From positions 1,550,001 to 1,614,000 of the forward strand of contig NZ_CP064791.1 in assembly GCF_017094465.1 (NCBI RefSeq): a DNA stretch of 64,000 nt. Direction: 5' to 3'. The position numbers were made by a program, and so were the translations under genes. The notes beneath the pieces are model-generated. The model was not told the DNA's origin. It saw only the letters and a program-made list of their open reading frames with translations, and ran no database searches. This DNA comes from Halapricum desulfuricans (GTDB lineage Archaea; Halobacteriota; Halobacteria; Halobacteriales; Haloarculaceae). This document shows, piece by piece, positions 26,649 through 50,281 of the stretch (position 1 is its first letter; every line of letters begins with the position of its first letter).

Positions 26649-26772
26649 ATATTACTGTTTCTCGAACAATTATATAGCAGTTTCTATACTACGTATCTCT
26701 CGAAGGCACAACCGGTTGCACAGGCCGCGGACAGCGACACAGTAATCGGTGTCTAGCCCTCAGTGTACGTGT

Positions 26773-26988
26773 ATGGAACAGAACGTCGGTTCCCTTGATA
26801 AGAGCGTTCGTATCGCTATCGGTGCGATCGCCGGAATTGTGTCGCTTGCAATACTGGGTGGACAGATCGGTCTGCCGGAGATTGCGTCACCAGTCCTGGG
26901 TATCGTCGCAGTTATGATGCTCGGGACGGCGCTGACTGGCACCTGTGGGTTGTACTCGGTGCTCGGTATCGACACCTGCTCGGTGTGA
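26773..26988 (+). CDS. YgaP-like DUF2892 membrane protein
   Basis: 71 residues: MEQNVGSLDKSVRIAIGAIAGIVSL starts with the conserved NVGxxDRxxR-like pattern, then two membrane helices (about 12-31 and 36-57) and a C-terminal GTCGLYSVLGIDTC. Function is unknown; such proteins often accompany rhodanese domains. The frame is open 8 codons upstream, but the ATG at 26773 gives the family start. A structured repeat module follows its stop. Confidence 0.85.
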   Translation: MEQNVGSLDKSVRIAIGAIAGIVSLAILGGQIGLPEIASPVLGIVAVMMLGTALTGTCGLYSVLGIDTCSV

Positions 26989-27002
26989 TCGGCGCCAGCT
27001 GC

Positions 27003-27179
27003 GTTTTACTGCGTCGGGTGCGCTCCCGGTGGTCGCGCACCACTCTCTGTTCACGGCGACCTCGCCGTCGTTCGCACGGCCAGTGGGATCTTCAGTCTCG
27101 CCCGGTTTACAAAAACGTGGGGCAAAACGTCCTGCTGGCTCCCGACAGTCGCCAGCACTGAAACCGGTTTCGGCCGTAT
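27003..27179 (+). repeat. structured intergenic module, copy C
   Basis: It shares ordered blocks with the copies at 36491-36625 (minus) and 49031-49268: CTGCGTCGGGT, then a hairpin (GGTGCGC/GCGCACC), CCACTC, ACAAAAACGTGGGG, a hairpin (TGCTGGC/GCCAGCA), CTGAAACC and GCCGTAT. It lies downstream of the DUF2892 gene in the same direction and ends 3 bp before the convergent tiaS stop. Confidence 0.65.
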
Positions 27180-27182
27180 AGG

Positions 27183-28448
27183 CTATTGTTCGGGGTGGAT
27201 CGGTCCGTCGAATCCGCCACGAACCAGCGGTTTCGCGATGTGGCGTCTCGCAACCGGCGGCACCTCGTACCATCCGACTTCGAGGTCACGGTCGATCTCC
27301 CGCGCGACCTTCCCGTCCGCGCTCGTCCTGCAGTCTCGACACCGGTAGCCTTGCCCTCGTCCGGCACTCTCCATCGAACGCCCACACTCGGGGCAGTCCG
27401 GTGTCGCCAGTGCAGTCTCACGCAAGTCCCGCACCGCGAACTTCTCCAGTTTCAGGGTTCCATCGCTCACTTCGCCACAGACGGTTACGTCGTCGCCGAC
27501 TCTGAGCGCCCGAACTCGGTCACGAAATCGCTTGGTCGGCTCGAACGCTGCACACTCGATCGTGTGCTTGCCGTCGCCAACCGTCAGGAACACGTGGCCA
27601 CCTGTGTGGGTCTCCGGCGGCTCGGTGATCGTCCCGTCGACGCAGTACGCGCGTCCGTCAGTCGTCTCCCCGATCGTCGCCGGTTCGAGGTGAGCGTCTG
27701 TCCCCTGGTTGGTCACGAACAGCTGTCGGCTAGCCACCGGCTCGCTCTCGATACGGTCAGCGACGCTTTCGACCACATCCGGATCGTCACCACGGATACC
27801 ATAGAGGATCGGGCACGGCGTGTGCGGGATACAGACTGCCTGGCCCTCGCCGCGATCGACGGTGTCCCAGGCGTCGGGATAGGCCGCCTCGGCGGCCGCG
27901 AAGACCGGTTCGCGATCGACATCCCGATCGGTTCCCCAGCGCTCGCGCTCGCGATAGCTGATCGACTCGTAGGTCCACTCCTCGAAGGCTTCCCAGGCAC
28001 CGACCGCGGCCAGTGCCCCGATCAACCCGCGACCGTTGCCCCGCGACAGCGTCGCGAAGCCGTGGCGGTCGGTCAGCTCGCGGGCGTCGTCGATATCGTG
28101 GTGGGTCCTGATCGCCCTGCGAGCGAACTCGGCCACGTCGTCAGGTATCCACTCTGGTTTGCCGTCAGCGACGACGACGCCGGGGTTGGTGCGGGGGTCC
28201 TCGGTCTCGGCCAGCTCGATCACCTCGCCGATGAGAGTGCGGGCGGTATCGACATCGGCGTCGGTGTGGACTGCCAGCGCGGCGTTGCCCCGCGTCTTGT
28301 GCTCGACGGCGGGGTTGAGCCGAACCAGAAGCGTTCGCTCGACGTTCCAACCCGCCTCTCGCAGTCGCCTCGCGAGTCTGGCGGCGACGTAGGTCGTACA
28401 CATCCCGCGATCGCGGGAATCCGTATCGTCCAGGCCGACGACGGTCAC
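27183..28448 (-). CDS. tiaS: tRNA(Ile2) 2-agmatinylcytidine synthetase
   Basis: 421 residues. TiaS attaches agmatine to C34 of tRNA-Ile(CAU) so that it reads AUA, an archaeal process. The N-terminus MTVVGLDDTDSRDRGMCTTY holds the kinase-like DDTDS motif. A central domain has HGFATLSRGNGRGLIGALAAVG, an OB-fold lies about 270-345, and a Zn ribbon CPECGRSM...YRCRDC is near 365-390. Its stop lies just after repeat module copy C. Confidence 0.95.
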   Translation of the reverse strand: MTVVGLDDTDSRDRGMCTTYVAARLARRLREAGWNVERTLLVRLNPAVEHKTRGNAALAVHTDADVDTARTLIGEVIELAETEDPRTNPGVVVADGKPEWIPDDVAEFARRAIRTHHDIDDARELTDRHGFATLSRGNGRGLIGALAAVGAWEAFEEWTYESISYRERERWGTDRDVDREPVFAAAEAAYPDAWDTVDRGEGQAVCIPHTPCPILYGIRGDDPDVVESVADRIESEPVASRQLFVTNQGTDAHLEPATIGETTDGRAYCVDGTITEPPETHTGGHVFLTVGDGKHTIECAAFEPTKRFRDRVRALRVGDDVTVCGEVSDGTLKLEKFAVRDLRETALATPDCPECGRSMESAGRGQGYRCRDCRTSADGKVAREIDRDLEVGWYEVPPVARRHIAKPLVRGGFDGPIHPEQ

Positions 28449-36359: not shown

Positions 36360-36490
36360 CGGTTCACGGTTACACCGTTCGCCGACCGCGGCGCTTCGCG
36401 CCGCTCACCGCTCACCGCTCGTCTTCCGAGCCCTCGCTCGCTGCGCTCGCGAGGAGGGGGACAGCTCGATTTGTTGCGGCGAAGACGAGC
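36360..36490. repeat. hairpin-rich stretch with tRNA-Phe-like fragment
   Basis: It contains GCGGCG/CGCCGC at 36387-36403, a conserved-loop hairpin CCTCGC/GCGAGG (36432-36454) and GGGGGACAGCTCGAT (about 36456-36470). The last is identical to part of tRNA-Phe at 36797-36811. No gene. Confidence 0.6.
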
Positions 36491-36625
36491 ATACGGCGAG
36501 CGAAGCGAGCCGTTTCACTGCTGACGAGCGAAGCGAGTCAGCAGGTGTTTTTCCCCACGTTTTTGCAAGGAGTGGTTCCCGCAGCGAGCGGAGCGAGCGA
36601 GGAAACCCGACGCAGCAAAAAGTGG
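36491..36625 (-). repeat. structured intergenic module, copy A
   Basis: Read on the minus strand: CCACTTTTTGCTGCGTCGGG, a TTCC/GGGAA hairpin, CCACTCCTTGCAAAAACGTG, GGGAAAAACACC, hairpin CTGCTGAC/GTCAGCAG (36518-36544), GTGAAACGGC and hairpin ACGGC/GCCGT (36493-36513), ending GCCGTAT. The block order matches copies B and C. It follows the second tRNA-Phe 3' end after 2 bp. Confidence 0.7.
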
Positions 36626-36627
36626 TA

Positions 36628-36648
36628 TGCCGCCTCCCCGATTTGAAC
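36628..36648 (-). repeat. extra copy of the tRNA-Phe 3' end
   Basis: 21 bp identical to 36776-36796, the T-arm and acceptor 3' strand of tRNA-Phe, with no other tRNA parts. An inverted fragment TCAAATCGG (36700-36708) and a 9-bp-stem hairpin (36724-36768) lie between the copies. Confidence 0.85.
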
Positions 36649-36775
36649 CCGCCGAGACGGTCCTGCTCGCTCCGCTGCGCGGGCGTGCGACTCGTCTGCT
36701 CAAATCGGCTCGGATATGATTTCGCGGCCGACGGCTCACTCGCTACGCTCGTTCGCGTTGTCGGCCGCAGAAACA

Positions 36776-36849
36776 TGCCGCCTCCCCGATTTGAACGGGG
36801 GACAGCTCGATCTTCAGTCGAGTGCTCTCCCAGTCTGAGCTAAGGCGGC
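36776..36849 (-). tRNA. tRNA-Phe (anticodon GAA)
   Basis: Acceptor GCCGCCT/AGGCGGC, D arm AGCTCAGACTGGGAGAGC, anticodon stem CTCGA/TCGAG with loop CTGAAGA, T arm CCCCGTTCAAATCGGGG, discriminator A. CCA is not encoded. Confidence 0.96.
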
Positions 36850-47956: not shown

Positions 47957-49027
47957 ATGTCGACAGGTGTGGTCCTGCTGAACTTCGGCGAACCGCCGAC
48001 GGCCGACCGCGAGGTCGTCGTCGACTACCTCGAACGCATCTTCTACTCGAATATGGACATCGAGGAGGACCCGGATCTCACCCCGGAAGCCGCACACAAA
48101 CGCGCCGGCAAACTCGCGGAACGCCGCGCGCCCGGGTTGATCGAGGAGTACGAGGAGATCGGCGGCGGCTCACCGCTCAACGACCAGGCCAGCGCGCAGG
48201 CTGACGCCCTGGAGACTGAGCTTCGAAACCGCGGCTACGACGTTGCGACATACTCCGGGATGCTCTATACGGAGCCGTTCACCGACGAGGCCGCCGAACG
48301 GGCCGTCGCTGACGGCCACGACGAGGTGCTCGGGCTGCCGATCTATCCCCTGTGTGGCCCCTCGACGACGAACCTCTCGCTGGATCACCTGTCTGCGGGG
48401 CTCGATGAGGCCGGGTTCGACGGCGAGTTGCACGAGGTCAGCGGCTGGCATCGGCATCCGACCTACAACCGCCTGCGCGCCGAGAACATCCGCGAGTACG
48501 CCGATAGCGAGGGGGTCGATCTCCACGACGAGGACACTGTCCTGTTCTTTTCGGCCCACGGGACGCCCCGGTACTATCTGGACGAGGGGAGTCGCTACGA
48601 TCGGTACGTCGACGAGTGGTGTGCCGGCATGGCCGGTATCCTGGGGGTCGAGGACTACGAACTGGGCTTTCAGAATCACGACAACCGCAGCGAGGTCGTC
48701 TGGACCGAACCAGACGTCGAGGAGGCGATCGAGAGTCTCGACGCCGAGCAGGTCGTCGTCGAGCCGGTCAGCTTCATGCACGAGCAAAGCGAGACCCTTT
48801 CGGAACTGGACATCGAACTCCGCGAGGAGGCCGAGGAAGCCGGGCTGGAGGAGTTCTACCGCGTCCCGATTCCCCACGACGACGACCGGTTCCCGTCGGT
48901 GCTGGCGGATCTGGCAGAGCCGTTTCTCGCCGACTTCGATCCGGGCTACTTCCAGTTCCGGCAGTGTCACTGCCGGGACAAGCCGGGCACGATGTGTCTG
49001 AACGCCCCAGATCCGGACTGGGACTGA
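47957..49027 (+). CDS. hemH: ferrochelatase (possibly coproporphyrin-type) with Cys-rich C-terminus
   Basis: 356 residues. VVLLNFGEPP at the start, IGGGSPLN, the catalytic His in LFFSAHGTPRYY and the second-site ESL-like VEPVSFMHEQSETLSELDIE. The tail FRQCHCRDKPGTMC (about 336-349) supplies three closely spaced cysteines, suggesting an iron-sulfur cluster. Convergent hemE implies tetrapyrrole synthesis; in haloarchaea with a PitA/ChdC-type enzyme the substrate would be coproporphyrin III, which is inference. Confidence 0.92.
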   Translation: MSTGVVLLNFGEPPTADREVVVDYLERIFYSNMDIEEDPDLTPEAAHKRAGKLAERRAPGLIEEYEEIGGGSPLNDQASAQADALETELRNRGYDVATYSGMLYTEPFTDEAAERAVADGHDEVLGLPIYPLCGPSTTNLSLDHLSAGLDEAGFDGELHEVSGWHRHPTYNRLRAENIREYADSEGVDLHDEDTVLFFSAHGTPRYYLDEGSRYDRYVDEWCAGMAGILGVEDYELGFQNHDNRSEVVWTEPDVEEAIESLDAEQVVVEPVSFMHEQSETLSELDIELREEAEEAGLEEFYRVPIPHDDDRFPSVLADLAEPFLADFDPGYFQFRQCHCRDKPGTMCLNAPDPDWD

Positions 49028-49030
49028 GAA

Positions 49031-49268
49031 CCACTTTTTATTCCGTCGGGTTTCCTCGGGTTTCGGCCCTGCGGGAACCTCTCCTCGCAAAAACGTCCTC
49101 AGAAATCGGAGATTTCTGATGGGCTGCGTCAGAGCTTCGCTCTGACGAACGTGGGGAAAAACGACCTCGACCGCACTACCTCGCGGCTCCGCTGCTCGGC
49201 TTTCCGCGGTCGCGAGGCGACCGCACTACCGTTCGGTCGAGTGAAACGGCTCCCTGCGGTCGCCGTAT
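49031..49268 (+). repeat. structured intergenic module, copy B (largest)
   Basis: Starts 3 bp after the hemH stop: CCACTTTTT, CGTCGGGTTTCCTCGGG hairpin, CTGCGGGAACC, GCAAAAACGT, two extra hairpins (TCAGAAATC/GATTTCTGA and CGTCAGA/TCTGACG), AACGTGGGGAAAAACG, a long compound hairpin (CTCGACC ... GGTCGAG) and GTGAAACGGC...GCCGTAT. It ends 5 bp before the convergent hemE stop. Confidence 0.7.
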
Positions 49269-49273
49269 GCAGG

Positions 49274-50281
49274 TCACCACCGGAAGTTCTTCGCCGTCTC
49301 GACGAACGTCTGAACGCTCTCGACTGGCGTCTCCCGATCGACGCCGTGGCCGAGATTCAGCACGTGGCCCTGTGGGCCAGCCGCCTCGATGATCTCCCGC
49401 GTCCGTTCCCGGATTGTCTCACGGTCGGCGAACAGCACGGACGGGTCGAGGTTCCCCTGTACGCCCAGGTCGTCGAGCTGGGCCCGTGCATCGCCCATCT
49501 CGACCGTCCAGTCGAGGCCGACCACGTCGGGATCGGCCGCGGCCAGTTGCCCGAGCCGCCCGTTCATGTTCCGGACGAACAGGATCGTCGGCGCATCTAC
49601 TGCGTCGATGATCTCCCGATGGCGCGGCACGATGTGTCGCTCGTAGTCGGCCGGCGGAAGGACGCCAGCGTAGGTGTCGAACACCTGCACGACATCGGCT
49701 CCGTGGGCGACCTGATACTGCAGGAAATCGGCGACGGCGGCCGTGAAGTGATCGAGCAGTCGCTCGAACGCCCCAGGGTGTTCGAGCCGGAATCGTCGTG
49801 CAGGCAGGTGGTTGCGCGAGGGCTCGCCGGCGATCGCATACGAGGCCAGGGTGAACGGGCCGCCGGCGAAGCCGATCAGCGACGTTCGATCGCCGACGCG
49901 ATCGTCGAGGCGGTCCAGCAGTTCGCCGACGTACGCAAGGCGCTCGGAGATCGGCTCGCGGGACCGGTCGGTATCCTCCGGGCGCGAGACCGGATTCTCG
50001 ATCACCGGACCGACGCCGGATTCGATGTGGTAGTCGAACCCCAGTGGCTCGAGGATCGTCAGGATATCCGAGAACATCACGAGCCCGTCGGGACGATACC
50101 GCTCCCACGGCAGCATCGTGATCCGTTCGGCCACCGCCGGGTCGGTGACGGCTTCGACGAACGAGTGGTTCTCGCGGATCTCTCTGTACTCCGGGATGTG
50201 CCGGCCGGCCTGACGCATCAACCAGACCGGGGGCCGTTCGGTCCGCTCGCCGCGGGCCGCGCGAACGAGGAGATCACTCAT
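49274..50281 (-). CDS. hemE: uroporphyrinogen decarboxylase
   Basis: 335 residues. It removes four acetate carboxyls from uroporphyrinogen III to give coproporphyrinogen III. The signature RPPVWLMRQAGRHIPEYRE sits near the N-terminus (17-35), then FAGGPFTLASYAI and the C-terminal LNLGHGVDRETPVESV. It is convergent with hemH across the repeat module, placing two tetrapyrrole genes tail to tail. Confidence 0.95.
   Translation of the reverse strand: MSDLLVRAARGERTERPPVWLMRQAGRHIPEYREIRENHSFVEAVTDPAVAERITMLPWERYRPDGLVMFSDILTILEPLGFDYHIESGVGPVIENPVSRPEDTDRSREPISERLAYVGELLDRLDDRVGDRTSLIGFAGGPFTLASYAIAGEPSRNHLPARRFRLEHPGAFERLLDHFTAAVADFLQYQVAHGADVVQVFDTYAGVLPPADYERHIVPRHREIIDAVDAPTILFVRNMNGRLGQLAAADPDVVGLDWTVEMGDARAQLDDLGVQGNLDPSVLFADRETIRERTREIIEAAGPQGHVLNLGHGVDRETPVESVQTFVETAKNFRW

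Follow-up and report, generated by a model that had tools for sequence, protein, structure and literature searches.

The window, that is, the whole 64,000-nt stretch of DNA analysed, contains three copies of a folded intergenic repeat, here called E. One lies between hemH and the convergent hemE (copy B), one between a small membrane-protein ORF and the convergent tiaS (copy C), and one downstream of a tRNA-Phe gene (copy A; Table 1). Eleven copies from the window's own genome, trimmed of their loops, went into a covariance model, R1; A and B were in the training set and C was outside it. All three copies match it significantly, and the earlier note was right to treat them as one module. It had described the module as a series of shared, ordered blocks. 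The ordered combination is significant, but the blocks are approximate and not exact in every copy: CTGCGTCGGGT is found unaltered in A and C alone, B having TTCCGTCGGGT; CCACTTTTT is replaced by CTGCGTTTT in C; and GCAAAAACGTGGGG is uninterrupted only in A, with C reading ACAAAAACGTGGGG. Scanned alone within the window, the individual blocks reached no significance. The paired elements go beyond those listed in the note, and comprise an outer stem, CCA(C)/(G)TGG together with T5/A5, and hairpins 1, 2 and 3.

Table 1. Copies of E in the window, parts of copy B, and flanking genes
Feature	Position	Strand	Evidence or remark
Copy A of E, canonical, insert-free	36488..36625	-	Covariance model match 75.8 bits, E-value 2.8e-19
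Copy B of E, hemH/hemE intergenic region	49031..49271	+	Covariance model match 38.4 bits, E-value 1.2e-8
Copy C of E, DUF2892-like ORF/tiaS intergenic region	26999..27182	+	Covariance model match 23.7 bits, E-value 1.9e-4
Copy B: CCACTTTTT, outer stem 5' half and sense T5 tract	49031..49039	+	3 nt past hemH stop
Copy B: 52-bp palindromic insert between ACGT direct repeats, splits AAAAACGT^GTGGGG	49097..49148	+	
Copy B: ACGTGGGGAAAAAC, outer stem 3' half and second A5 tract (antisense GTTTTTCCCC)	49149..49162	+	
Copy B: hairpin 2 (CTCGACC/GGTCGAG), insert-enlarged loop	49166..49241	+	
Copy B: 50-bp palindromic insert in hairpin 2 loop, GACCGCACTAC repeats on either side	49180..49229	+	
Copy B: hairpin 3 (ACGGC/GCCGT) and 3' terminal GTATGCA	49246..49271	+	E ends 2 nt short of hemE stop codon
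hemH (ferrochelatase), left host of copy B	47957..49027	+	Pfam PF00762, E-value 1.5e-65
hemE (uroporphyrinogen decarboxylase), convergent to copy B	49274..50281	-	Pfam PF01208, E-value 2e-106
Small membrane-protein ORF (putative DUF2892), ends 10 nt before copy C	26749..26988	+	ORF list
tiaS, convergent host gene of copy C	27183..28448	-	Pfam TiaS domains
tRNA-Phe, gene upstream of copy A	36776..36849	-	
Partial second copy of tRNA-Phe 3' end (gggttcaaatcggggaggcggcata), immediately before copy A	36626..36650	-	Sequence

The core of copy B is a canonical E split twice, by two palindromic inserts. An insert like the 52-bp one occupies the identical site in an E copy of a sister species (locus L146), and its GTCAGAGCTTCGCTCTGAC hairpin is also found in EF-2-linked E copies from three genera (genomes G004, G006 and G007), there between hairpin 2 and the GAA motif. 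A related version of the 50-bp insert lies at the equivalent place in genome G002 (L111); this insert was also considered as a genome-wide repeat and rejected as one, with a single copy in the window's genome. Copy C has about 57 additional nt separating hairpin 1 from the A5 tract. The gap between tRNA-Phe and copy A (36626-36776, minus strand) consists of about 125 nt with strong hairpins, followed by the partial repeat of the tRNA-Phe 3' end, and a similar layout at tRNA-Phe occurs in another genus (L141).

Structure, covariation and distribution

The core of E is about 95-150 bp long. In the orientation used by the earlier note, the first half of the consensus is CCAC(C)TTTTT - short junction - TCGG[hairpin 1]ACC-NCTC - junction, and the second half is AAAAAC-N-TGG - GG(C)AAAAA - NN - [hairpin 2] - (T/G)GAA - [hairpin 3] - ATGCT. 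The long first hairpin is closed by the outer stem, CCA/TGG plus T5/A5, for which compensated variants are found (CGAC/GTCG, CGAA/TTCG, CTAAA/TTTAG, CCAT/ATGG), as they are for the junction stem (CCGC/GCGG, CGCC/GGCG, CGGT/ACCG, GCAG/CTGC).

Covariation was tested on 110 distinct rows and 21 pairs. With the alignment fitted to hairpins 1-3, and so favoring those stems, 93.8% of cells are paired, compared to 70.0% after shuffling and 37-44% when partners are slid by 1-3 columns; the outer stem pairs in 84% of cells even though it lies outside the fit. Double changes number 432 cells against 139 shuffled, and the covariation score is 0.455 against 0.112. The compensatory stem changes first seen in three copies are thus confirmed over many, with double changes in 19 of the 21 pairs. 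At the orthologous 3' end of an enoyl-CoA hydratase family gene (likely menB), where E begins 0-4 nt past the stop codon in genomes G000, G001, G002, G005 and G006, the layout is kept while the stems are largely unrelated. E is conserved in fold, with drifting stems and variable sequence.

The covariance-model search of haloarchaeal genomes that the note had proposed returned many further copies, including 37 in the window's genome (genus Halapricum) at E-value ≤ 1. Among 59 relatives, 50 carry E, the richest with about 58 copies. An even sampling across the phylum, at E-value ≤ 1e-5, places it in 27 of about 43 members of the order (Halobacteriales), with zero matches in the roughly 204 genomes from outside it. 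Among the named carriers are Halapricum, Natronomonas, Haloarcula, Halosimplex, Halorientalis, Halovenus, Salinibaculum, Halococcus and Haloplanus. No orientation bias along the chromosome is obvious.

Other apparent occurrences were set aside. Pattern matches in bacteria (Streptococcus, Selenomonas, Paraburkholderia and others) are probably due to chance, since the phylum sample shows no E outside the order, and those in IMG/VR are chance matches (16 bits, GC 44-48%). The pleolipoviruses HRPV-2 and HRPV-6 were rejected as carriers because only the CTCGCTTCGCTCG palindrome is in common. These two viruses have in common a conserved structured intergenic region (L304:370-900, L305:360-620) with TTCCTCGCTCGCTTCGCTCGCTGCGG, which is also the palindrome of type-2 hairpin 1 in E.

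Searches of Rfam at the gathering score in the window, and at E-value ≤ 1 over six loci, gave tRNAs and chance miRNA matches and nothing else. No equivalent of E was found in the largely open-access literature searched; only the PATE, SMR and MITE classes surfaced. E is a previously unlisted family of short folded repeats in salt-loving archaea: conserved in structure and free in sequence, present in tens of copies in most of the relatives sampled, and with no Rfam entry.

Position at gene ends and strand signature

Gene contexts were compared for 200 unique copies, using home-made ORF calls and ARAGORN. In this set, made up of the best model matches plus one DNA pattern and with non-independent copies within a genus, 105 copies (52%) lie between convergent genes, 91 between tandem and four (2%) between divergent ones; for background gene pairs in the same loci the figures are 22% convergent, 60% tandem and 18% divergent. 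The placement at transcript 3' ends proposed from the three copies is right, in that E adjoins the ends of genes and tRNAs. The claim that every copy follows a transcript running the same way as itself is not supported as worded, as both orientations occur. With a limit of 15 nt, 96 of the 200 have the end of a sense gene or tRNA at their left edge, nearly always at 0-6 nt, and 43 have the end of a convergent gene at their right edge, with a peak at -2, where the CT of E plus an A makes the TAG stop of the convergent gene. Just five copies adjoin a gene end at both edges, which suggests that there is usually one host per E, in either orientation relative to it. Among the hosts are 13 tRNAs, EF-2 (in the window's genome and at three further loci) and, at seven loci, an acyl-CoA-dehydrogenase-like gene. 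Many of the rest occur once. E influences where genes end, and can alter C-termini and stop codons.

Runs of at least five T residues are present on the sense strand in 181 of 209 copies, on the antisense strand in 197 and on both in 175, and the bases following the sense run are mostly AC or CC. The intergenic terminator of Haloferax volcanii is a T stretch with C after it, and T5C gave 95% termination in vivo (PMC7237163). E has this arrangement of a T run and then C close behind a gene end, and by analogy with Haloferax its T5 tracts on both strands would bring candidate terminators for both directions.

The internal loops and hairpin loops have a strong strand bias. Among two-by-two internal loops, TC/TC was counted 260 times, the next unpaired type (CT/CT) 32 times and every other at most six times; TC/TC on the sense strand is GA/GA on the antisense strand, i.e., a tandem G-A motif. 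Of 304 distinct hairpins, 173 have a GNA triloop on the antisense strand and 20 have one on the sense strand, and GNRA accounts for only three of 38 tetraloops. TC/TC outnumbers GA/GA by 103 to 1 in left-hosted copies and by 42 to 0 in right-hosted ones, so the signature is a property of E itself and does not stem from the transcript of the host. In hairpins 2 and 3, G-T pairs (1.1 and 0.8%) are about as rare as A-C mismatches (0.9 and 1.1%), while tRNAs from the same loci have 8.4% G-T; counter to this pattern, a T-G pair is conserved on the sense strand of type-2 hairpin 1. Predicted folding energies for RNA are about -54 and -52 kcal/mol for the antisense strand and -49 and -46 for the sense, and the tandem-GA loops form in the predicted antisense RNA structure. 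GNA triloops, Py-GA-Pu contexts and wobble-free compensated stems are typical of very stable DNA hairpins of the d(GCGAAGC) mini-hairpin type.

A structured 3'-UTR RNA, as first proposed, is doubtful, because the GA/GNA signature is antisense on whichever side the host lies and because hairpins 2 and 3 are nearly wobble-free; of that proposal, a terminator role is the part that the T5 tracts on both strands do fit. The fixed strand of the signature, together with stems nearly free of wobble, suggests that the hairpins act at the DNA level. If both strands were constrained as RNA, that could likewise leave few wobble pairs. With hundreds of compensated, nearly wobble-free stems, the family offers a natural test of selection on DNA versus RNA hairpins.

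Duplications, and gain or loss, at host ends

In 22 of 38 right-hosted copies, the last 20-77 bp of the host gene are repeated on the far side of E. The same kind of duplication is found at several tRNA ends, and at none of 78 left-hosted copies with protein-coding hosts; most left-hosted copies have no flanking duplication. One edge of the duplication always coincides with the gene end and the other is variable, so these are not fixed-length target-site duplications, a possibility that was considered and rejected. At locus L086, the duplicates in G000, G003 and G004 each match their own gene, which differs between the species. The left copy there retains its native stop (TCAGTACG), and in G000 and G003 the stop of the copy next to E is built with the last bases of E (GCTAGTACG).

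Tandem arrays in which a second E and host end precede the gene (E-g-E-gene) are common, as are truncated remnants of E; one locus (G032:C1:2763268-2763677) has three tandem E copies with a 142-bp period. At the 3' end of EF-2, E is present in G000, G004, G006, G007 and G038 and absent in G001-3, G008, G036 and G037. Together with the duplications, arrays and remnants, this suggests that copies have been gained or lost over time. It is not a highly active process, because many positions are old and shared within a genus. No clean, alignable pre-insertion site was found, and several seemingly empty sites contain E remnants. The IscU-like locus L092, put forward at one stage as proof of an empty site, was withdrawn because species lacking E there retain a hairpin 2 remnant. 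In a sister species, a TnpB-type element apparently takes up the place behind a methyltransferase-like gene that holds E in other species (L176, G001:C1:459400-460800). The mobile character that had been suggested as one option for the three copies is borne out by the dispersal of E, its presence or absence among relatives, its tandem arrays and its duplicated host-gene ends.

A proposed mobile element and its relation to known systems

Overall, the sequence evidence points tentatively, and with a little less than even confidence, to E being a short non-coding, transposase-less mobile DNA element of the Halobacteriales, specialized for gene 3' ends, with T5 terminators on both strands and acting by way of its folded antisense strand. 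The strand opposite to the orientation used above would fold as single-stranded DNA into a long hairpin, closed by CCAC..GTGG and T5/A5, and then hairpins 2 and 3. Stems would be free to drift, with the tandem G-A mismatches, GNA triloops and linkers (A5, GTGAA, ATGCT) held constant, and E would be recognized by its fold, not its sequence, and settle directly behind gene 3' ends. There, the T5 tracts on both strands and a possible stop at the right edge (..GCT plus A, giving TAG) would keep the ends of host and neighbor proper; E may be tolerated at stop codons and tRNA ends because stop codons and terminators are reconstituted in this way. Where E faces a convergent gene, the extra copy of the host end could be a by-product of staggered insertion or, as the nascent antisense strand folds, of template switching around it. 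Template switching would explain why duplications of protein-gene ends are found only on the right, but not the native left end at L086 or the tRNA cases. What moves E, and how the ends of host genes become duplicated, are questions that it raises for archaeal mobile DNA generally. A broader proposal, that this repeat of about 130 bp represents a new archaeal mobile class with recognition of folded single-stranded DNA through tandem-GA/GNA motifs, homing to gene 3' ends, rebuilding of the host end by duplication, and terminators for both flanking genes, is rather doubtful.

The main alternative is a bidirectional terminator maintained by vertical descent. E could quite possibly be an immobile 3'-end module, serving as terminator and as mRNA or tRNA trailer, with hairpins that act in RNA in either direction: the left transcript would end at the T5 behind a stop codon and the right one at hairpins 3 and 2 with T5CC after them, and copies would be inherited vertically with occasional duplication. 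Its position 0-6 nt behind stop codons or tRNA ends, the enrichment between convergent genes, T5 on both strands with T5C a known terminator (PMC7237163), and the conservation of the menB and EF-2 positions across species would all be expected of such a module, as would hosts that include tRNAs and EF-2, the stable antisense RNA fold and, if RNA is read from both strands, the absence of wobble. However, the tandem-GA/GNA signature stays on one strand whatever the direction of the host, E is missing behind the same essential genes (EF-2) in close relatives, ordinary haloarchaeal terminators require no such structure, and the host-end duplications and tandem arrays are left unexplained. The mobile element is tentatively favored over this module.

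It is unlikely that E is a self-perpetuating palindromic repeat, its stems corrected by template switching and spread by local duplication and recombination with neither function nor dedicated mobility. Near-perfect, wobble-free stems, the replacement of entire stems, nested palindromic inserts, tandem arrays and the many decayed remnants could all arise in this way, but conserved unpaired motifs, specific internal loops, a tight position at gene ends, depletion at promoters and dispersal to unrelated genes could not readily do so. An independent structured RNA from the antisense strand is very improbable in spite of the more stable antisense fold and the tandem-GA loops predicted in it, given hairpins 2 and 3 with no wobble enrichment on either strand, triloops instead of RNA-type tetraloops, a multicopy and dispensable character, and no Rfam match.

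For the mobile element, no transposase or recombinase was identified, nor any link to TnpB elements. E-like structure is absent at 11 of 12 TnpB loci of the window's genome, and no TnpB motif is present in 178 E loci; derivation from IS605/TnpB ends is therefore unsupported. The two matches at one TnpB locus (L344) lie about 1.4 kb from it and are ordinary copies of E. TnpB C-terminal domains (PF07282) number 24 in genome G000, and several lie on a 180-kb contig with no E match.

Several known systems have features in common with E. Integron attC sites are structure-conserved, sequence-variable hairpins of one DNA strand at gene 3' ends, each a single imperfect hairpin with R''/L''-L'/R' boxes and with an IntI integrase nearby. 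The likeness is one of analogy only, as E has three separate hairpins and hosts in both orientations, and is seemingly not part of cassette arrays with an integrase. MITEs differ in having terminal inverted repeats, which E lacks, and duplications of fixed length, while those of E range from 20 to 77 bp or more. SPRITE, BOX, RUP and other MITE-like repeats are small, interspersed intergenic hairpins, some of them terminator-like (reviewed in PMC10969869); compared to these, E is archaeal and conserved in structure but not in sequence, with no terminal inverted repeats or fixed-length target duplication. It resembles the T-stretch terminators of Haloferax volcanii (PMC7237163) in having T5 and then C shortly past stop codons, but adds about 100 bp of conserved structure to such simple tracts and has tracts on both strands.

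Nearest in kind are the PATEs of Haloquadratum walsbyi, which are short, transposase-free, palindrome-built elements without terminal inverted repeats, present in many copies per genome; their palindromes are also reported to be targeted by smaller inserted elements, they make no target duplications, and their ends resemble those of the IS605 type (PMC3119063). Like them, E has no terminal inverted repeats, its ends (CCAC.. and ..ATGCT) not being inverted copies of each other in the unique copies inspected. It departs from PATEs in two of their defining features, since it has duplications and no relation to IS605/TnpB was found, and is set apart from them by direct repeats of host ends (20-77 bp, in 22 of 38 right-hosted copies), a fixed three-hairpin plan, an outer stem with T5/A5, and a preference for the 3' ends of genes.
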